A stretch of 64,000 bases of DNA, taken from Haloferax sulfurifontis ATCC BAA-897 (GTDB lineage: Archaea; Halobacteriota; Halobacteria; Halobacteriales; Haloferacaceae). Each line of letters opens with the position of its first letter. The stretch's first letter is position 1. Position numbers and translations under genes: made by a program. The notes below the pieces were generated by a model. The model did no database searches, was not told the DNA's origin, and saw only the letters and a list, made by a program, of their open reading frames with translations. Below are positions 51,706-62,902 of the stretch, piece by piece. The stretch spans positions 1-64,000 of the forward strand of contig NZ_AOLM01000012.1 of the NCBI RefSeq assembly GCF_000337835.1, in the 5' to 3' direction.

Positions 51706-53955
51706 ATGGCGTCTCCTGACAAGAACTCCCAGACTGACCGCCGCGATGGCGAAGAATCGTTCCGAGCAGACGGTGGCACCGCCGAACTGGTCCCCACGAC
51801 CGGTCCGCAGGCGATGGCCGCCCGCGCGAGTGAGCTTCCGGTCCCCGCGTCGGACCGCATCGAGTACGGCCCCGCCGACGACCTCGTCGAAGACGAGACG
51901 GACGAAGACCGCCCGGAGACGCTCCGGGAGGCCGTCCTCCGCGAGGTGAAGGCGTTCTTCGCCGCCATCGACGACGAGACGGCGTTCGCGCCCGCGCCCT
52001 CCGAGGCGTTCATCGAAGACAAGTTCTTCGACTTCGCGTTCCTCGACGGCGTCGAGGCCGTCGAACACTACTGGGTGAACAAGCCCTTCGCGTTCGTCTC
52101 CATCCTGTACGACCACGAGAAGCGCGAACACCGGTACCACGTGAGCGAGCCGCGCCTCGACCCCTTCGAGGACTTCGTGCGCGAGGACCTGACGAAGATT
52201 CTGCGCAACAGCCTGCTGTACCGCGACCTCGACGCCGACGGCGACCGCGAGGACGTCTTCGACGAGGAGGCCCGCGAGATAATCTCCGAACACGCCGCGA
52301 CGGTCGAAGAGGGGTCGCTCTGGAAGCTGTTTTACTTCCTGCTTCGGGACTTCATCCACTTCGGCCGCATCGACCCCGTGATGCGCGACCCCGGCATCGA
52401 AGACATCTCCTGTGACGGCGACGACGTGCCCGTCTACGTCTTCCACAGCGTCTACCGGGACGTGCCGACGAACGTCGTCTTCGACGACGGCGACCTCTCG
52501 TCGTTCACCATCCGCCTCGCGCAACGCGCGGGCAAGCAGGTCACCGTCTCCGACCCGCTCGTGGACGCGAGCCTCCCGGACGGCTCTCGCGTCCAGTTAA
52601 CCCTCGGCTCTGACATCGCCACCCGCGGGTCGAACTTCACCATCCGGAAGTTCTCGGACGTGCCGCTGTCGCCGGTCGACCTCGTGCGCTGGAACACCTT
52701 CAGCGTCGAGCAGATGGCGTACTTCTGGCTCGCCATCGAGAACAACCGCTCTCTCATCTTCGCGGGCGGCACGGGCTCCGGGAAGACCACCTCGATGAAC
52801 GCGGTGTCCTTCTTCGTCCCCGGCCACGCGAAGGTCGTCTCCATCGAGGACACCCGCGAAATCACCCTCCCGCACGACAACTGGATTCAGTCGGTCACCC
52901 GCGACACGTTCACGGCCGACGGCCGCGGCGAGGTGTCGATGTACGCGCTCCTGCAGGCCGCGCTCCGACAGCGCCCCGAGTACCTGCTGGTCGGCGAGAT
53001 TCGCACGGAAGAGCGCGTCGCGCTGACGTTCTTCCACTCCATCGCCACGGGCCACACCGCGTACACGACGTTCCACGCCGACTCCTCGGAGGGCGTGGTC
53101 CACCGCATGCGCAACGAGCCCCTCGGCGTGCCCGCCCAGATGCTCTCGGACCTCGACATCATCTCGGTCCAAAAGCAGATTCACCTCGACGGCGACCGGA
53201 CCCGCCGGAACATCGCCGTCACCGAAATCGCCGGCGTCGACGACGACGGCGAGGTCGAACTCCGCGACGTGTTCAAGCGCAACCCCGAAAACGACGCCCA
53301 CGAGCGCGTCGGCGACTCCGTCGTCCTCGACGAAATCGCCGCCGAGCGCGGCTGGACGAAGGCCGACCTCAAGTACGAACTCGACATCCGCGCCGACGTG
53401 CTCCGGTACATCGCCGCCTCGGGCGTCGACGACTACCTGACGGTGTCGGCGATGATTCGCCGCTTCGAGCGCGACCGCGAGGGCCTCCTCGCGCACGTCT
53501 ACGCCGAGACCTCGCTGGTCTCCGTCGACGACGAGGCCGACGAACACGACGACGACGCGGCCGACGAGGCTGACGCCCCGGCCGACGAACACGACGACGA
53601 CGAAATCGAGGTCTCGCCCGAGACCGAGCGGCTCCTCGCGGACCTGTTCGACATCGAGTTAGACGACGACGCTGACGGCGACGAAACGCCCGACTCCGCC
53701 GAGGCGGAGGCCGCCCCCGAACCCGCGCCCGCCGCCGAAAGCGACGACGCTGATGCCGGCGCAGACGACGCGGAAGCCGATTCCGCTGTCGTCGCAGACG
53801 CCGTCGAGTTCGACGATGTCGCGGAGGCCGGCCCCGCGCCGGCCGATGACGCCTCGGACGCCGACGAAACCGACGAAACCGACGAAACCGACGAAACCGA
53901 CGACTCCGAATCCGTGACCGACGACGACGACCGGGAGGCCGACGATGCCCGCTGA
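51706..53955 (+). CDS. pilB: Type IV pilus assembly/secretion ATPase PilB
   Basis: 749 residues of the VirB11/GspE-type secretion ATPase family. A variable N-terminal region precedes IEDISCDGDDVPVYVFH, an N-domain segment. Walker A is AGGTGSGKTTSMN near residue 353, the Asp box is VVSIEDTREITLP and Walker B EYLLVGEIRTEE. The last ~165 residues are Asp/Glu-rich with a DET repeat near the end, characteristic of halophile disordered tails. It powers pilus assembly in concert with PilC. Its stop overlaps the pilC start by 11 bp. Confidence 0.95.
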   Translation: MASPDKNSQTDRRDGEESFRADGGTAELVPTTGPQAMAARASELPVPASDRIEYGPADDLVEDETDEDRPETLREAVLREVKAFFAAIDDETAFAPAPSEAFIEDKFFDFAFLDGVEAVEHYWVNKPFAFVSILYDHEKREHRYHVSEPRLDPFEDFVREDLTKILRNSLLYRDLDADGDREDVFDEEAREIISEHAATVEEGSLWKLFYFLLRDFIHFGRIDPVMRDPGIEDISCDGDDVPVYVFHSVYRDVPTNVVFDDGDLSSFTIRLAQRAGKQVTVSDPLVDASLPDGSRVQLTLGSDIATRGSNFTIRKFSDVPLSPVDLVRWNTFSVEQMAYFWLAIENNRSLIFAGGTGSGKTTSMNAVSFFVPGHAKVVSIEDTREITLPHDNWIQSVTRDTFTADGRGEVSMYALLQAALRQRPEYLLVGEIRTEERVALTFFHSIATGHTAYTTFHADSSEGVVHRMRNEPLGVPAQMLSDLDIISVQKQIHLDGDRTRRNIAVTEIAGVDDDGEVELRDVFKRNPENDAHERVGDSVVLDEIAAERGWTKADLKYELDIRADVLRYIAASGVDDYLTVSAMIRRFERDREGLLAHVYAETSLVSVDDEADEHDDDAADEADAPADEHDDDEIEVSPETERLLADLFDIELDDDADGDETPDSAEAEAAPEPAPAAESDDADAGADDAEADSAVVADAVEFDDVAEAGPAPADDASDADETDETDETDETDDSESVTDDDDREADDAR

Positions 53956-56071
53956 CTCGTCGGCGTCGGTTCCCCTGCCCGACTACGAGGTCGAGCAGTA
54001 CTTCCCGCGCGAACACTTCGACGAGTCGCCCGAGGAGGTCGAGCGACTCCGCCAGCGCTACGGCTACGTCCGCACGTACTTCAAGCGCCACCCGGCGGGC
54101 CACCGCGACCTCCAACGCTGGCTGAACCAGACCCGCGTGGGCACGACCTACGACCTGTATCTCACCCAGTCGATTAAGCTGGCGGCCGTCACCGCGGCGT
54201 TCGGCTCGCTCGTCGGGCTCGCGCTCACGTTCGTCCTCGCCCGCACGGGCGTGCTGGCGAACGCGTCGAGCCCCGTTAGCCTCGGCATCGCGGCGCGGTA
54301 CGTCGCCCCGCTCACCCCCTACAAGGTGCCCATCCTCGGCGTGGTCCTCGTCGGCCTCGTCGGCGGGTTAGCGGCCGCCGGGACCTACTACGCCCGGTAC
54401 TACCTCCCCAAGAGCCGCGCCGAGATGCGCGGCCGGAGCATCGACATCCTGCTCCCGCACGCCATCGTCTACATGTACGCGCTCAGCCACGGCGGGATGA
54501 GCTTCCTCGAAGTCATCCGCTCGGTCGCCGACGCGCCCGACTACGGCGAGGTGTCCCGCGAGTTCGAGATGATCGCCCGCGACATGGACCTGTTCGGTAA
54601 CGACCTGTTCACGGCGCTCCGCAACTCCCGGAACCTGACGCCCTCGATCAACTTCGAGCAGTTCCTCGACGACTTGCTGTCGGTCCTCGACTCCGGCGGC
54701 GACGTGACCGCCTTCCTCGACCGCGAGTCCGCGACCTACCTCGAAGAGGCCCGCGACGAACAGGAGGACTTCATCGAGACGCTGTCGATGCTCTCGGAGG
54801 TGTTCGTCGCCGCGTTCGTCGCCGCGCCGCTCTTGCTCATCGTCACCCTGATGGTCATCAGCTTCCTCGGCGGCGACACGCTCGTCCAGCTGTACGCGCT
54901 GAACTACCTCATCTTCCCGCTCGGGATGGGGCTGTTCTTACTCCTCGTGGACGTGCTCTCCTCGCCGTACACCCAGGACACGGTCCGGACGAAACACGAC
55001 GTGACCGTCCTCGAAGAGATTCGGACGGTCGCGGTCGACTTCCTCGGCGCGATGCGCCGCGAGGTCCAGCGCGCCCGCGAGGCCCGCTGGGGAAGCGACG
55101 GAATCGCCTCCGACGGCGGCTTCGTCGACGAGCGACTCGACGACTACCGCCTCGAAAACGCGGTGTACGAGCTTCGGACGCTCATCGGCGACCCGCTCGA
55201 CATCATGCGCCGCCAGCCGTACCTCTCGGCGGCCTTCACGGTGCCCGTCGCGCTCCTGTCGGTCGTCGCCGTCTACGCGCTCGGCCTCGCGACGCCGAGC
55301 CTCGACGCCATGCTCGCCGACCCGTACAACACGACGGTCTGGTTCGTGGTCCTCCCGTTCGCCATCGTGGCGGTCCCGCTGACGGTGTTCCACGAGCTTC
55401 GGACCCGCCGCGAGCGCACCCTCGAACGGCGCTTCCCCGACACGCTGAACCTGCTGTCGAGCGCCAACCAGATGGGCATCTCGCTGGTCGAGTCGCTCGC
55501 GCTCGTCTCCCGCTGGTCGAACGGCGCGCTCGCGGACGAACTCCGCGCGCTCCGCAACGACATCCGCTGGAACCACGACGCCCACGCGGCGCTCATGGCG
55601 TTCGCCACCCGGCTCAACGTCCCGCAACTCTCGCGGGTCATCCGGCTCATCGCCAGCGGCGGCCGCACCAGCGGCGACCTCTCGCGCGTCCTCAGCGTCG
55701 CCGCCGAAGACACGCGCAACCGCTACAAACTGGAGAAGTCCCGCCGTCGCGCGATGGGCTCGTACATCGCCATCGTCGTCATCGGGTACTTCGTCTACCT
55801 GTTCGTCATCCTGATGCTCGGCGCGAGCTACCTCGCCCCGCTCGCCGAGATGACCGCGCCCACGACGGCGTCGAACGGGCAGGCGCTCCCCATCGGTATC
55901 GGCTCCGTCCCGCTGGCGAACTTCCACGTGGTGTTCTTCCACTCCGCGCTGATTCAGGCGGTCGGAAGCGGGCTCCTCGCCGGCAAACTCGCCGACAACA
56001 GCGCCCTCAGCGGGCTGAAGTACGCCCTCGGACTGTCCGCGCTGGCGCTCGTCGCCTTCGCACTGGTGTAA
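53945..56071 (+). CDS. pilC: Type IV pilus membrane platform protein PilC
   Basis: 708 residues, two TadC/GspF-like halves, each with conserved cytoplasmic helical domains and membrane helices (IKLAAVTAAFGSLVGLALTF; APLLLIVTLMVISFLGGDT; TVPVALLSVVAVYALGL; ALGLSALALVAFALV at the end). Motifs include SHGGMSFLEVIRSVADAPDY, typical of archaeal PilC. It anchors the pilus ATPase in the membrane. The start overlaps pilB by 11 bp, and the stop is 4 bp before the first pilin-like gene, so all are one operon. Confidence 0.94.
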   Translation: MPADSSASVPLPDYEVEQYFPREHFDESPEEVERLRQRYGYVRTYFKRHPAGHRDLQRWLNQTRVGTTYDLYLTQSIKLAAVTAAFGSLVGLALTFVLARTGVLANASSPVSLGIAARYVAPLTPYKVPILGVVLVGLVGGLAAAGTYYARYYLPKSRAEMRGRSIDILLPHAIVYMYALSHGGMSFLEVIRSVADAPDYGEVSREFEMIARDMDLFGNDLFTALRNSRNLTPSINFEQFLDDLLSVLDSGGDVTAFLDRESATYLEEARDEQEDFIETLSMLSEVFVAAFVAAPLLLIVTLMVISFLGGDTLVQLYALNYLIFPLGMGLFLLLVDVLSSPYTQDTVRTKHDVTVLEEIRTVAVDFLGAMRREVQRAREARWGSDGIASDGGFVDERLDDYRLENAVYELRTLIGDPLDIMRRQPYLSAAFTVPVALLSVVAVYALGLATPSLDAMLADPYNTTVWFVVLPFAIVAVPLTVFHELRTRRERTLERRFPDTLNLLSSANQMGISLVESLALVSRWSNGALADELRALRNDIRWNHDAHAALMAFATRLNVPQLSRVIRLIASGGRTSGDLSRVLSVAAEDTRNRYKLEKSRRRAMGSYIAIVVIGYFVYLFVILMLGASYLAPLAEMTAPTTASNGQALPIGIGSVPLANFHVVFFHSALIQAVGSGLLAGKLADNSALSGLKYALGLSALALVAFALV

Positions 56072-56075
56072 GGCC

Positions 56076-58253
56076 ATGACTCACAACACTCCCAACAACA
56101 CCCAATACACACAATCGCCCCTCAGGCACGTACTGCGCGGGCTCGTCGCGGGCGCGGCCCGCCGCGGCTCGCACCTCCGCGGTGACCGCCGCGGGGCCTC
56201 GGCCATCCTCGGCACGATGCTCGCGTTCGCGCTCGTCGTCTCGCTCGTCGCGATGGTGCAGGTCTCGGCGGTCCCCGCGTGGAACCAACAGACCGAGTTC
56301 GAACACCTCACGGCCGCCGAGACCGACTTCGCCGCGTTCGACGAGAGCGTTGCGAAGGCCGTCGACGGCCGGCAGACCCGCGCGACCCTCGACGCCGGCG
56401 TCGACTACCCGACCCGCGCGCTGTTCGTCTCGCCCGCCGCCGGCTCCGGAAGCCTCCGGACGACCGACCCCGCGACGGCCCGCATCTCCGGGGCGGTCGC
56501 GACCGGCGAGACCGGCACCTACTGGGACGGCTCCGAACACGCGTTCGACACCCAGCAGTTCGTCTACCGCCCCGACTACCGGTACCTCCAGAGCGAGCCC
56601 TCGCTCGTCCACGAGGGGACCGCGCAGTACACCGCCTACGCGGGGAGCGAGGTCGGCGCGACCCAGTCGCTCGTCGACGGCACCAAGGTCTCTCTCGTCT
56701 TCCTCGAAGGCGACATCGACACCGCGACGAGCGAGGCGACCACCTTCGGCGTCGTCCCCCTGAGCGCCGGCACCGACTACATCACGGTCACCGACGCGGG
56801 CACGCCCATCACCATCTCGGTCCCCACTCGGCTCTCCGAAGACACGTGGCGCGACCTGCTGGCCGACGAACCCAACGTCCGCTCTATCGCCTACGCGACC
56901 GGCACCGACTACAACACGCTGACGGTCGAACTCGCGCCCGGCAAGACCTACGACCTGCGTCTCTCGCGGGTCGGCATCGACACCCCCGGCGCGCTCCAAG
57001 CGCCCGCCTACATCGTCGACGTCGAGGGCGACAACGCCGTCGTCCCGCCCGGTTCGAGCCACCGCGCCGTCGTCGAGGTCCGCGACGCGCAGAACAACCC
57101 CGTCCCCAACGCGGTCGTCAAGGCCAGCCCCGGCCTGACCGCCGAAAGCGGGCGGGTCGTCGCGCGCGACACCGACACCGTCTCGACCGTCACCGATTCG
57201 GACGGCCGCGCGACGTTCGTCTACACCGCGACCGGGAGCATCGACGGCGTCGTCAACGACGAGTTCGACGTGGTCGTCGAGGACGCCGCGGGCGCGACCG
57301 TCGACCGCGTGACCTTCGACGTACAGCTCCGCGAGGGCGGCGTCACCGACCCGCTCCGCGGGCTCGTGGCCGCCGTCGACGACCCCGGCTTCGTCTACGC
57401 CGACGTGGACGGCAACGGCGAGTTCGACGGCGCGGACTACCGCGTCAACGACACCGGCACGGGCGGCGACGTGAAATACGACGCCGGTACCGACCGGCTC
57501 GTCGTCCCGCCGAGCACCGGGACCATCGTCTCCGACCGCGACATCACCCTCGCGGGCGACGGGGTCTCGCTCCACGTCGACGTCGTCGCCACCGGATCGA
57601 ACAGCCGGGTCGACGTCGACGCCGGAAGCGGCTCGCTGGCCGCGGTCGGCGTCAGCGTCACCTCGGTGTCGGGGAAGGACATCACCGTGACCGCGGGCGA
57701 CGAAATCGACCTCTCGGGCGCGTCGGTCACGCAGGGAAGCAAAGCCGGCCTCTCCATCGAGGCCGGCGGCGACGTCGACCTCGACAACGCCGGGGTGACG
57801 GTCGCACAGGACAGCAACAGCCTCCGCATCGTCTCGACGGACGGCTTCGTCAGCGCCCGGAGCGCCGACATCAGCGGGAAGGGCGACATCCGCATCGACG
57901 GCACGGACGGCGTCGACCTCGCCGGGGCCGGCCTCTCGGGGGTCAAGGACAACGGCGCGCTCGACGTCGTCTCCGCGCGCGGCGGAGTCAACCTCAACGG
58001 CGTGGTCATGCTCGGCGACGGCGACATCGTCGTCGACGCCGAGGGCAACGTCTTCGTCGTCGGCGCGAACATCGCCTCGACCAAGACGGACGTGGTGATA
58101 ACCTCCGACGGCGGGATGGTCAGCGGCCGCGAGGCCGCCATCTCCGCCGAGGACGACGTGACGATCACCGCGGCGGTCCGCATCTACCTGCCCGACTCCT
58201 CTATCGAAGACGAGGACACGCCCGAACTGAACGCGCCCGAGAAGGAGGTCTGA
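56076..58253 (+). CDS. Giant pilin-like surface protein 1 (Ig-like domain and beta-solenoid-like tail)
   Basis: 725 residues. A charged leader of about 40 residues ends DRRG, followed by a hydrophobic helix (ASAILGTMLAFALVVSLVAM) at 41-66. This matches a class III prepilin signal with cleavage after Arg-Gly. The ectodomain begins with a region shared with the next gene (VDYPTRALFVSPAAGSG; SEDTWRDLLADEPNVRS). A big-1-type Ig-like domain follows (HRAVVEVRDAQNNPVPNAVV). From about residue 470 on are repeated short strands (GDVDLDNAGVTV; GDIRIDGTDGVDLAGAGL; GDIVVDAEGNVFVVGANI) that look like a beta-solenoid. It is far larger than normal pilins; a pilus-tip or cell-surface adhesin role is inferred. 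Confidence 0.85.
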   Translation: MTHNTPNNTQYTQSPLRHVLRGLVAGAARRGSHLRGDRRGASAILGTMLAFALVVSLVAMVQVSAVPAWNQQTEFEHLTAAETDFAAFDESVAKAVDGRQTRATLDAGVDYPTRALFVSPAAGSGSLRTTDPATARISGAVATGETGTYWDGSEHAFDTQQFVYRPDYRYLQSEPSLVHEGTAQYTAYAGSEVGATQSLVDGTKVSLVFLEGDIDTATSEATTFGVVPLSAGTDYITVTDAGTPITISVPTRLSEDTWRDLLADEPNVRSIAYATGTDYNTLTVELAPGKTYDLRLSRVGIDTPGALQAPAYIVDVEGDNAVVPPGSSHRAVVEVRDAQNNPVPNAVVKASPGLTAESGRVVARDTDTVSTVTDSDGRATFVYTATGSIDGVVNDEFDVVVEDAAGATVDRVTFDVQLREGGVTDPLRGLVAAVDDPGFVYADVDGNGEFDGADYRVNDTGTGGDVKYDAGTDRLVVPPSTGTIVSDRDITLAGDGVSLHVDVVATGSNSRVDVDAGSGSLAAVGVSVTSVSGKDITVTAGDEIDLSGASVTQGSKAGLSIEAGGDVDLDNAGVTVAQDSNSLRIVSTDGFVSARSADISGKGDIRIDGTDGVDLAGAGLSGVKDNGALDVVSARGGVNLNGVVMLGDGDIVVDAEGNVFVVGANIASTKTDVVITSDGGMVSGREAAISAEDDVTITAAVRIYLPDSSIEDEDTPELNAPEKEV
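58243..58249 (+). promoter_or_regulatory. Strong Shine-Dalgarno site for the second giant pilin
   Basis: aggaggt is a full anti-16S match, seven bases before the GTG at 58,257, overlapping the end of the upstream gene. Strong SD sites are uncommon in haloarchaea, and this one supports the GTG start. Confidence 0.7.
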
Positions 58254-58256
58254 GCC

Positions 58257-59984
58257 GTGTCTCGCCTCTCTCTCGACTCCCGCGGCGTCTCGGAAATCCT
58301 CGGGTTGGTCTTCGCGTTCGGGCTGGTCGTGTCGGTCATCGCGGTGGTCCAACTCGCGGGCACGCCCGTCTGGACCGCCGGCGACGAGGCCGACCACAGC
58401 GCCAGCGTCTCGACCGACCTCGCGTCGCTCGACTCGCAGGTCTTCCGCGCCTCCGGCGCCGAGTCCGGCAGTCGCGTCGCGGTCGACTCGGACGTGTCGT
58501 ACCCCGAGCGGTACCTCGTGGTCTCGCCGCCCGACAGCGCCGGGACCTTCCGGGTCGACGGCGCGGACGCCGTGACGGTCACGGGCGTCTCCGCGGTCGG
58601 TCCCGAAGCGGTGTTCTGGGACGGCACGACCCGCACCTACGAGACCGGTGCCATCGTCTACGAGGCCAACTACGCCGAGCGCGACCAGGCGCGGATGGTT
58701 CTCGAAAGCGGCGTCTCGTACCTCGAAACCGACGGGAACCCCGTCGTCCACCGCCAGTCGCTCGTCCGCGGCACGACCGTCACGCTCGTGTTCTTCGAGG
58801 GCGACCTCGACGGCCACACGACCGCCGGCGACACCGTGGCGCTCGCGCCCATCTCCGTGCGCTCGGAGTCGCTCCCGGTGTACAACGCCACCGACCCGGT
58901 TCGCATCTCGGTGCCGACCTACCTCTCGGAGGACGCGTGGGTCGGCCTCATGGCCGAGGAACCCCACGCGCGGGTCGTCTCCCACGTCGCCAGCGGCGAC
59001 CACGCGGTCGTCACTATCGAACTCGACGCGGGCGTCCGCTACGACTTCCGCGTCGCCCGCCTCGGCGTCGGCGAGGCCGTCGAACCCGACCCCGCCGCCT
59101 ACGCCATCGCGGTCGAAGGCGAGGACGCCGCGGTCCCCTCGGGCGGCCGCGAGACGCTCACTGTCCGCGCGTTCGACCGCTACGGCGCGCCCGCCGCGGG
59201 CGCGACGCTGACCGTCAGCCCGTCGACCCCGCTCGGCGGCACCGTCGCCCCGACCGCCGGGGCGACCGCCGTCACCGACGAGTCCGGCCGCGCGAGCTTC
59301 ACGTACACCGCGCCCGACGACGTGACCGATATCGAACACGACTCGGTCACCGTCACCCTCGACGGGGCGTCCGGCCCCGGCGCGACGGTCACCCTCCCGC
59401 TGGAAGTCCGCGGGACGGGCGAGACCTACGAGGTCAGAAACACCACCCCGTCGACGCCGGAGCCCGAAGACGACTTCAGCATCGACGACGGCGAGGTCGT
59501 CCCGTCGGACGACTTCACGGGGGAGTTCAAACTGCTCGGGAGCGCCATCTCGGACGGGTGGCACGATGTCCCCGTCTCCGTCACCTTCGTCGTCGACGGC
59601 GAGTCGCACCACTCCGCGGACTGGGACAACGTGAACGACCGCCGGTCCCACTCGTTCAGCGTGACTGGCGACTCCGGTGACACGCTCTCCATCGTCGCCG
59701 CCACCGACGGCTACGTCACGGCCGACTCGTCGGTCGACCACCGACAGGTCGCAGTCCTCCGCGACGGCGACCGGGTCCCGAGGATACGGGGCTACAACGG
59801 ACAGGACGACGCCGCCGAGTTCGTCGCCCCCTACATCAGCGACGACGGGCGCACCATGGACCTCGCCGACAACCAGGCCATCTTCCTGTTCGAACTCGGA
59901 ACGACCGACACGGACAGTCCGGCCTTCGACATGCAGGACGTGGTCATCCTCGTGACCCTCTGGGAAGACGGGGGTGAGCGCTGA
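58257..59984 (+). CDS. Giant pilin-like surface protein 2 (Ig-like domain)
   Basis: 575 residues. A short leader, MSRLSLDSRG, is followed by the hydrophobic segment VSEILGLVFAFGLVVSVIAV, a class III prepilin signal. The ectodomain is homologous to that of the upstream gene (SYPERYLVVSPPDSAG; VYEANYAERDQARMVLESG; LSEDAWVGLMAEEPHARV). A big-1-like domain follows (TLTVRAFDRYGAPAAGATLT). After an acidic linker near residues 395-415, a third beta-rich segment ends VILVTLWEDGGER. No beta-solenoid tail is present, which differs from protein 1. The GTG start is supported by a strong Shine-Dalgarno site. Confidence 0.85.
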   Translation: MSRLSLDSRGVSEILGLVFAFGLVVSVIAVVQLAGTPVWTAGDEADHSASVSTDLASLDSQVFRASGAESGSRVAVDSDVSYPERYLVVSPPDSAGTFRVDGADAVTVTGVSAVGPEAVFWDGTTRTYETGAIVYEANYAERDQARMVLESGVSYLETDGNPVVHRQSLVRGTTVTLVFFEGDLDGHTTAGDTVALAPISVRSESLPVYNATDPVRISVPTYLSEDAWVGLMAEEPHARVVSHVASGDHAVVTIELDAGVRYDFRVARLGVGEAVEPDPAAYAIAVEGEDAAVPSGGRETLTVRAFDRYGAPAAGATLTVSPSTPLGGTVAPTAGATAVTDESGRASFTYTAPDDVTDIEHDSVTVTLDGASGPGATVTLPLEVRGTGETYEVRNTTPSTPEPEDDFSIDDGEVVPSDDFTGEFKLLGSAISDGWHDVPVSVTFVVDGESHHSADWDNVNDRRSHSFSVTGDSGDTLSIVAATDGYVTADSSVDHRQVAVLRDGDRVPRIRGYNGQDDAAEFVAPYISDDGRTMDLADNQAIFLFELGTTDTDSPAFDMQDVVILVTLWEDGGER

Positions 59985-60037
59985 GGACGCCGACCCGCCG
60001 CCGCGCTCGTCAGGAGCGCCGACCCATTCTTTCGGTC

Positions 60038-60043
60038 TTTTTT
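60038..60043 (+). terminator. Oligo-T terminator of the pil operon
   Basis: Six T (tctttttt context) about 54 bp after the stop of the second giant pilin. It is the first T-tract downstream of the operon. Confidence 0.5.
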
Positions 60044-61346: not shown

Positions 61347-62402
61347 TCAGTTCTCCGTTTCGTTGTGGATGGGCGTCTCCGTCGGTGGCGGAGTCTCACT
61401 CATCGGTTCGTCAGTAGTCGTTTCGTCGTCAGTGGTCGTTGTCTCGTCGTCAGTGGTCGTTGTCTCCGGTTCGTCAGTAGTCGTGGTCTCTGGTTCGTCA
61501 GTAGTCGTGGTCTCTGGCTCGTCGGTCGTCGTTGTCTCCGGTTCGTCAGTAGTCGGTTCCTCCGTCGTCGGTTCCTCACCGACAGTCACGACTGCGTCGT
61601 CGGTGACGGGCGTGCCGTTCATCGTGTACGGACCGTCTTCGGTTCCGTTAGACGTGAGGAAGTCGAGCGTCTGGTTGTCGTTGGTGTCGAGATGCGCCTG
61701 CGCGGTCAGGTTGGCGCTCTCGTTCAGCGGTTCGAGAAGCGGCACGGTGACGTTCTCCTGCGGACCGGATTCGAGGTAGTCGGTTGCGCCGATGACCGAG
61801 CCGTTCTCGTCGAGGATGGCGATGTAGCCACCTTCGGAGAGGTTCGCGCTCGCGACGGTCACGTTACTGCCGTCGGACTCCTGGTCGTCGAACTGGAGCG
61901 TCGCGTTCGGCTCCTCGGGTTCGGGCTGTTCGCCCACGGTGAGCGTCGTCAGCTCGCCGAAGTCGCGCGTCTCGATACCGTGGATGTACGTCCCGTCTTC
62001 GAGACCCGTCGTGTTGACGTCGAACGCGATGGTCTCCGTCTCGTTCGGGTTCAGCGCCCAGCCGGTTCGGACGACCACGTCGCCTTCGAGCCGGAACTCG
62101 ACGCACTGAATCATCGGCACGTCGTTCGGGTTGGTGATGTCCGCCGACACCGTCACTTCCTCGCCGGGTTCGACGTCGGACGGGGCGGAGAGGTTGCTCA
62201 CCCCGAACGACTCGTAGGTCCCGTTGCTCGGATACGTACAGTACTGCGTCTGTGTCTGCGTCTGCGTTTGTGTCTGTGTCTGGGTCGGTTGTTCTACCTG
62301 TGCCTGCTGTGTGTCGACCGCCGCCAGTCCGGTCCCCGTCGCCGCCGCCGCGACGAGAGCGACGACGACGAGGACGCCGGCGATACGTGTTCGTGTGCTC
62401 AT
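61347..62402 (-). CDS. Secreted repeat-rich protein (DUF7282-like), probably cell-surface
   Basis: 351 residues. A Sec-type signal peptide with a hydrophobic core (RIAGVLVVVALVAAAATGTG) ends near residue 28. A Gln/Thr repeat (QTQTQTQ) follows at about 40-53, then two beta-rich domains (EEVTVSADITNPNDVP; NVTVASANLSEGGYIAILDE). The C-terminal 80 residues are TTTTDEPE repeats, which may be heavily O-glycosylated. No C-terminal membrane anchor is seen. Several N-x-S/T sites are present, typical of haloarchaeal surface glycoproteins. Function is unknown. Confidence 0.78.
   Translation of the reverse strand: MSTRTRIAGVLVVVALVAAAATGTGLAAVDTQQAQVEQPTQTQTQTQTQTQTQYCTYPSNGTYESFGVSNLSAPSDVEPGEEVTVSADITNPNDVPMIQCVEFRLEGDVVVRTGWALNPNETETIAFDVNTTGLEDGTYIHGIETRDFGELTTLTVGEQPEPEEPNATLQFDDQESDGSNVTVASANLSEGGYIAILDENGSVIGATDYLESGPQENVTVPLLEPLNESANLTAQAHLDTNDNQTLDFLTSNGTEDGPYTMNGTPVTDDAVVTVGEEPTTEEPTTDEPETTTTDEPETTTTDEPETTTTDEPETTTTDDETTTTDDETTTDEPMSETPPPTETPIHNETEN
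61400..61560 (-). repeat. Approx. 24-bp tandem repeats encoding TTTTDEPE
   Basis: A roughly 24-bp unit, based on gttcgtcagtagtcgtggtc, recurs about five times with small variations in the C-terminal part of the secreted protein. It encodes the Thr-rich acidic repeat. Confidence 0.75.
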
Positions 62403-62902
62403 GTATCTGCAATGACAATCTACCGACGCCGCCGGCAAAAGGTGACGAGATAGTTTCAATAGTTTCGCGCGCGGGCTGTCAGTTTACCTGACGGTGTAGA
62501 CGGTTATTCTGTCTCTGATTCCGATACTGGTGGCCTCTTGACCGATTTTCTCGCAACAGTTCACGACACACGACATTTCACGCGAGACGCTATTCCTTAA
62601 CTGTCAGAAAAGCGAGTAAGTCGCCGAAGCTAACGGGGTAGTCTCTCGTTTATTCGAACGTCTTGACAGTTTGAGTGACGGGAGCGACTGAGCGTTTCGA
62701 AACCGGGACGGTGTCCCGTCGGCGACGGTCTCGGGAACCGCCCCGAACCCCCATTCCAGACTTCCCACTCGGGTATCGATTAGCTCCTGACGTTGAGTAG
62801 TGCGAATCACAATCGGTATTGGCGTGACATTCGGGCCCGAATATGAGGAATCACACTCACAATATCCAAAACTTCTTGTACCCGTGTCGTATTTGGTCGT
62901 GT
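62403..62902. other. Intergenic stretch of about 500 bp, no gene found
   Basis: No convincing gene on either strand; the composition is clearly more AT-rich than neighbouring genes. A short hairpin, GTCAG-5-CTGAC, occurs at 62,478-62,492. A long open frame on the minus strand around 62,604-63,119 lacks the usual codon bias and antisenses two better-supported genes. The right end probably contains the promoter of the small zinc-finger gene. Confidence 0.55.

Follow-up and report, generated by a model that had tools for sequence, protein, structure and literature searches.

A conserved type IV pilus operon of Haloferax encodes two large, modular pilin-like proteins that may be displayed as minor pilins

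The first 64,000 nucleotides of contig NZ_AOLM01000012.1 of Haloferax sulfurifontis ATCC BAA-897 (the window; the whole assembly comprises 3.81 Mb in 29 contigs) contain a tight four-gene unit on the + strand, pilB-pilC-P1-P2, in which the genes for a type IV pilus motor are followed by genes for two homologous pilin-like proteins, P1 and P2, of 725 and 575 residues. What would proteins of this size do in a pilus operon? An earlier note on this DNA read them as unusually large subunits of a surface fibre or adhesin, assembled by a PilB/PilC pair of their own. Our analysis bears out the type IV pilus operon, which is conserved and belongs to a known kind; the modular form of its large pilins is apparently under-described. 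We favour the reading, with a probability of about 0.6, that the operon encodes a motor and two modular minor pilins displayed on a PilA-type filament.

The motor genes are readily recognised. PilB (51706..53955, +; 749 residues) is a type II/IV secretion ATPase with PilB3_N and PilB3_C domains, scoring 109.6 bits for T2SSE in Pfam, 39.3 for PilB3_C and 32.7 for PilB3_N (cut-off 27); against the NCBIfam model of the archaellum motor FlaI it scores 376 bits and does not reach the cut-off of 550. PilC (53945..56071, +; 708 residues) is a membrane platform protein, matched by T2SSF over two stretches with 131.9 bits. The genes for P1 (56076..58253, +) and its paralogue P2 (58257..59984, +) complete the unit. 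The spacing is as had been claimed, pilB and pilC overlapping by 11 bp and pilC lying 4 bp from P1; a further 3 bp separate P1 from P2. PilB ends in an acidic tail of ~138 residues (window 53539-53952), rich in Asp, Glu and Ala and with a DET repeat, the length of which appears from alignments to differ among Haloferax species.

P1 and P2 both begin in the manner of class III prepilins. An Arg-Arg-Gly motif precedes a hydrophobic helix in P1 (56187..56270, +), and Arg-Gly precedes one in P2 (58278..58358, +). A rule of our own, distinct from FlaFind, that seeks [KR][GA] within 60 residues and then an uncharged hydrophobic 18-mer selects exactly these two from the 174 mechanically defined open reading frames (ORFs) of at least 120 residues in the window; when the 18-mer was made to begin one residue sooner, P1 alone was selected. 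The P1 motif stands behind a leader of ~38 residues, which cannot be shortened because its ATG is the sole ATG, GTG or TTG before the helix in the open frame, and the aligned orthologues likewise have a long leader. In 20 aligned orthologues of P1 and P2 the Arg is invariant and is followed by Gly in 19 and by Ala in the remaining one. The PilA-type Pfam family Pilin_N finds no match in P1 or P2 at E ≤10; four relatives encoded next to pilB and pilC (hereafter linked) score 21.9-22.8 bits and L106 (G, C and L numbers are our handles for genomes, contigs and loci) scores 23.7, the cut-off of 25.2 not being reached.

P1 and P2 also share a block of ~380 residues (E 4.8e-64, 35% identity); both the prepilin-like starts and the shared block that had been described are therefore borne out. 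The block begins with a putative pilin module, which in P1 takes up its first ~252 residues (56187..56942, +) and is related to the Pfam family DUF7289 by hhalign, with a Pfam score of 18.5 bits. When columns 1-253 of the block were compared with seven DUF7289 proteins, hhalign gave 97.9% and E 4e-13 over 221 columns, and one linked relative (L076) passes the DUF7289 cut-off with 31.2 bits. Sequence comparison thus shows the module to be a DUF7289 relative over most of the family's length, though not one filed as a member.

An immunoglobulin-like (Ig) domain follows in each protein. That of P1 is of the invasin/intimin type (residues 306-422; 56991..57341, +; structural matches at Z 9.2-11.6) and that of P2 is Big_1-like (residues 277-387; 59085..59417, +; Z 9.2-11.7), the matched structures including intimin, invasin E and the S-layer protein SbsC, together with Ig domains of beta-galactosidase and complement proteins. 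Pfam does not find Big_1 in P1 itself and does find it in relatives; P2 matches it at E 4.6e-6 with 27.1 bits, below the cut-off of 34.9. Beyond the Ig domain the two proteins part company. The C-terminal stretch of P1 (residues 449-725; 57420..58250, +) is predicted to fold as a right-handed beta-helix, for which the ten-residue mean of the predicted local distance difference test (pLDDT) is 70-97; its best structural matches have Z 15.9-16.2 and a root-mean-square deviation of 4.3-4.8 over 268-278 aligned residues, at 6-8% identity, and at the DNA level this region holds weak, short repeat copies. P2 instead has a linker and a C-terminal part of no named family (59418..59981, +); the linker varies in length and is Thr-Pro rich in some orthologues, and the C-terminal part is modelled with low to middling confidence.

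In the structure predictions, which the earlier note had proposed, the pilin modules have low confidence, the predicted helices (residues 41-65 and 71-96 in P1, 8-34 and 41-67 in P2) having pLDDT mostly <50. Further searches added little. The Foldseek list for P1 holds one match at E ≤0.001, with mostly poor overlaps, and is not used as support; the block compared with the sequences of solved structures gave a best E of 0.64, and a PHROGs search matched none.

Is the operon more than a chance arrangement in one strain? Its gene order is kept in all nine named Haloferax loci, with best-segment identities of 55-98% for P1 and 56-97% for P2, the closest of the named loci found being that of Haloferax denitrificans (97% for P2). 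A survey of 15 Haloferax genomes, which overlaps these nine loci and covered PilB and the block, found PilB at E ≤1e-165 followed 2.2-2.5 kb on by a tandem pair of blocks in every genome. The stop-to-stop frames of the pair range from 428 to 833 residues, the second block gene being shorter in G148 and G151 (frames of 428 and 442 residues). PilB is apparently interrupted in G148 (C19), where it lies in two pieces.

Across the order, the shared block (alignment A3, E ≤1e-40) occurs in at least 114 of 145 genomes and at least 38 of 49 genera, mostly as one copy per genome, and DUF7289 itself in at least 140 of the 145 genomes at E ≤0.001, at least 136 of them over cut-off. PilB of the window's type, defined by a threshold that we set (E ≤1e-165), is found in at least 15 of the 145 genomes, as at least 16 genes in at least nine of the 49 genera. 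Up to 17 DUF7289, 13 block and 7 PilB candidates per genome were scored in these searches, and the counts may be low. For 13 of the 16 window-type PilB genes (13 of 15 genomes) a block relative follows 2.1-2.3 kb on, in the same orientation; outside Haloferax this PilB type is present in at least 13 of 143 genomes, with a block relative just downstream in 11 of the 13. In G124 (L096, L131) a PilB gene is apparently interrupted by an in-frame TAA.

Seen from the block, the association is looser. We chose 60 block loci by hand from the block matches to spread genera, so that the proportions are no rate, and the set is without four linked loci (G033 contig 49, G064, G135 and G140). With ~7 kb fetched per side, pilB and pilC stood directly upstream in 10 of these and were found at none of the other 50, and the idea that block relatives always lie at pilB/pilC was rejected. 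The earlier note had named such scattered homologues as grounds for giving up its reading, and these loci bear that out in part. G071 has three tandem block relatives (L084:7014-11703), around which the fetched stretch shows no pilB/pilC; of its two further copies elsewhere, one is beside pilB/pilC (L085). The many scattered loci would fit a reading in which P1 and P2 are surface proteins anchored by a pilin-like helix, with or without cleavage, and their adjacency to pilB and pilC is historical. We regard this explanation as very improbable, since linkage to one PilB type has been kept over several haloarchaeal families and the linked proteins cluster, most proteins of the 50 unlinked loci falling outside the tree group that holds the linked ones.

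This clustering comes from a block-protein tree of 74 rows (the truncated row L072 left out), where one fork (88/96, not starred) unites the 19 linked rows with five unlinked ones. The linked label requires four changes on the tree, compared with 17.1 in shuffles, none of 500 being as low; Haloferax contributes 10 of these 19 rows, which reduces the number of independent cases. The two kinds of protein also differ beyond the putative cleavage site, where a Gln-Ile/Val-Gly signature is present in 41 of 56 unlinked block proteins and in none of the 19 linked ones. The prepilin-like motif [KR][GA]-x4-[VIL]-[GSD] itself is common to both, being present in all 19 linked proteins and 54 of the 56 others; the two misses are L103, with the motif shifted, and L072.

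The PilB proteins give a corresponding picture. A first tree did not resolve the linked PilBs because of long branches; with three long rows (L008, L009 and L146) dropped, a second tree unites nine block-linked PilBs in a clade (100/99) that stands apart from those holding the genome's own C3:15435 and C3:136537 proteins, which we label PilB3-like and PilB4-like from our reading of the literature. Not counted under the clade label are the linked f3-family PilBs L136 and L137; these fall in with the PilB4-like clade, so that a block gene can also adjoin another PilB type. With this clade and the 13 of 16 genes, the earlier proposal of a type IV pilus-like operon whose large homologous pair is tied to a PilB type of its own is supported.

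In the block tree P1 and P2 form sister clades (10 rows, 100/96). This pattern suggests that a tandem duplication, within Haloferax or before the genus arose, gave rise to the pair, and that the C-terminal modules then diverged. A third block paralogue, P3 (G000:C12:90926-92623; L004:8927-10624), lies 31 kb downstream of P2 and far from all PilB matches of the genome, and falls outside the fork of linked rows; it matches Big_1 over cut-off with 51.3 bits. The ORF upstream of P3 we take to resemble elongation factor 1-alpha.

What, then, might this PilB/PilC assemble? The genome has one prepilin peptidase domain (Peptidase_A24, 50.4 bits, cut-off 26.5) and nine Pilin_N proteins over cut-off, none of them in the window operon and two on the window contig, near 117 kb. 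P1 and P2 could themselves be major subunits and make up a thick filament of giant pilins, with this PilB/PilC as its builder; our rule selects no other prepilin-like ORF in the window, and a pilus of large pilins has been reported for Myxococcus xanthus. We consider such a filament unlikely. The nine Pilin_N proteins elsewhere could be major pilins, the bulky C-terminal parts differ while their bases are homologous, which fits display better than a uniform lattice, and the frames of the tandem pair vary widely in length among the 15 Haloferax genomes. A fibre of giant subunits was rejected as the leading idea on account of these Pilin_N proteins and an architecture that fits displayed minor pilins; from the earlier claim of a dedicated PilB/PilC with giant fibre subunits, the PilB type survives and the fibre-building is less well supported.

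In the minor-pilin reading, P1 and P2 would be held in the membrane by their N-terminal helix and cut by the prepilin peptidase PibD, and this PilB/PilC would load them onto a type IV filament, the bulk of which would probably consist of small PilA-type pilins encoded elsewhere. Beyond the pilin module, the Ig domain would serve as a stalk for a C-terminal module, the predicted beta-helix in P1 and a different, unnamed module in P2, and the proteins may be displayed at the filament tip. Their likely job would be adhesion to surfaces, glycans or other cells, to judge from relatives and analogy.

The relatives in question were scanned with Pfam (E ≤1e-4). Among 55 unlinked relatives, L072 left out, Big_1 occurs in 25, CarboxypepD_reg in five, CARDB in four and PKD_4 in three, and a ConA-like lectin domain (Laminin_G_3) and PA14 in two each. 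A separate scan took in ten proteins, namely P3, the H. profundi P1 and P2 and seven linked proteins of other genera, without L096, L114 and the other Haloferax rows; a lectin-type module was found in none of the ten, and a hemagglutinin repeat in H. profundi P1 is at the cut-off (22.1 against 22 bits). The label 'adhesive' is given to P1 and P2 because unlinked relatives carry such modules, and by analogy.

The best structural matches of the P1 beta-helix, GH28 and GH87 enzymes, suggest another use. P1 and P2 might form a short, membrane-proximal array like a pseudopilus or bindosome that captures or handles polysaccharides, with the beta-helix of P1 binding glycans or acting on them. This seems improbable to us: the bindosome models of NCBIfam score far under their cut-offs (BasE 195.4 of 1000 bits, BasF 51.3 of 1300), the Pfam matches of the two proteins include no substrate-binding domain, and an identity of 6-8% is uninformative on catalysis.

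Several observations weigh against display of P1 and P2 as minor pilins by their own motor. No major pilin is encoded in the operon, which makes the filament partner a guess, and P1 (18.5 bits) and P2 (26.7 bits) both miss the DUF7289 (PF23960) cut-off of 27 bits. The low confidence of the pilin-module models leaves the pilin fold putative, and the P1 beta-helix has its structural matches at 6-8% identity, repeats being matched easily. The seven scanned linked proteins from outside Haloferax match Ig-type and pilin families only, the lectin-type modules being known from unlinked relatives, and L096 is almost tailless. Linkage has its exceptions also. PilB and PilC occur with no block in the fetched stretch in G006 and on contig 87 of G008 (at the remaining exception, contig 68 of G008, the contig ends within pilC), two linked blocks (G003, G046) adjoin a PilB4-like ATPase, and a single origin of the linked rows is found in none of 200 bootstrap trees, the starred branches forcing at least two changes.

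Comparison with known systems places the operon in familiar company. arCOG02911, common to the pil systems of euryarchaeal clade 2, has been proposed as a minor pilin and is described as FlaFind-positive, all-beta, Ig-like, often duplicated and variable in length, ~250-550 residues (Makarova et al. 2016, PMC4858521). P1 and P2 resemble it as duplicated Ig-like pilins in loci with a PilB-type ATPase and TadC; as far as descriptions can be compared, they differ in their greater length and in having C-terminal parts in addition to an Ig domain. The PilB4-PilC4 of Haloferax volcanii are accompanied by 'two relatively large pilins', and class III proteins are predicted at sizes from <150 to well over 1000 residues (Pohlschroder and Esquivel 2015, PMC4371748). 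The likeness lies in a PilB/PilC that is joined, within one genus, by two large genes whose products are FlaFind-positive or, for P1 and P2, have a prepilin-like start. PilB4 is HVO_1160, however, with extra N- and C-terminal domains (Makarova et al., PMC4858521), and resembles the C3:136537 locus of the present genome, with its 1096-residue frame, rather than the window operon. As PilB3-like and PilB4-like loci both lie elsewhere in this genome, elimination points tentatively to PilB5 for the window operon. PilB1 and PilB4 of H. volcanii are detected only in GMM-grown cells (PMC7305310), and pilB4 and pilC4 fall on infection of H. gibbonsii with HFTV1 (PMC12542753). The pilB3-C3 pair of H. 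volcanii can stand in, in trans, for a deleted pilB1-C1, and the reverse fails (PMC6491452), which offers a precedent for the use of another locus's pilins.

The C3:136537 locus (L025:1196-11534, G000:C3) also contains PilC, ORFs of 211, 344 and 171 residues that are pilin-like by eye, and a pilin-like ORF of 504 residues on the opposite strand. The frame of its DUF7289 gene stops ~4 codons past the match, leaving no Ig domain and no tail. The ten best DUF7289 matches have frames of 251-322 residues and some lower ones lie in frames >800; P1 and P2 differ by the extra Ig domain and further parts. A literature search found no paper on DUF7289 and a single one on arCOG02911.

The closest design, as an architecture only and by analogy, is that of the bacterial modular pilins (PMC8179133, PMC9934059, PMC10191384), which carry lectin, PF13620 and PA14 modules (PMC8179133); PilC of S. 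sanguinis, for example, consists of pilin, Ig-like and ConA-like lectin parts (PMC9934059). S. sanguinis PilB and PilC have in common with P1 and P2 a pilin base, an Ig-like part and room for ligand-binding modules, and in both cases two different modular pilins belong to one system. A possible difference concerns the bacterial pilin motif (IPR012902), P1 and P2 having no Pfam match of that kind at E ≤10. Our search of titles and of passages of PMC10191384 and PMC9934059 found no archaeal modular pilin, which is no proof of absence.

Taken more widely, a design of pilin base, invasin-like Ig stalk and exchangeable lectin, PA14, PKD or beta-helix modules could mean that haloarchaea, independently of bacteria, made the DUF7289-type pilin a general display platform with two lines. 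One would depend on a PilB/PilC of its own and the other, which is commoner, would be served in trans, the Gln-Ile/Val-Gly signature separating the two. We put this forward tentatively, at slightly less than even odds.

Around the operon, a T-rich stretch (60030..60043, +) starts 46 bp past the end of P2 and is possibly a transcription end. Upstream of pilB lies a divergent gene for a CBS-domain protein, across a gap of 390 bp, and window 61347-62459 (-) encodes a DUF7282 protein (120.2 bits) with a Thr-rich repeat of TTTTDEPE type close to its C-terminus.

Large, duplicated, Ig-like minor pilins of euryarchaeal pil loci are already in print, and the novelty of the present findings is therefore moderate; the modular design of such pilins, on the other hand, seems little described in archaea, and the pili of Haloferax are best known from small PilA adhesion pilins. 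If P1 and P2 are indeed displayed as proposed, haloarchaeal pili would gain specific, swappable binding heads, and the same design would be found on archaeal and bacterial pili. It would also give a purpose to pil operons that lack an assigned role, and provide testable adhesins in a genetically tractable genus.

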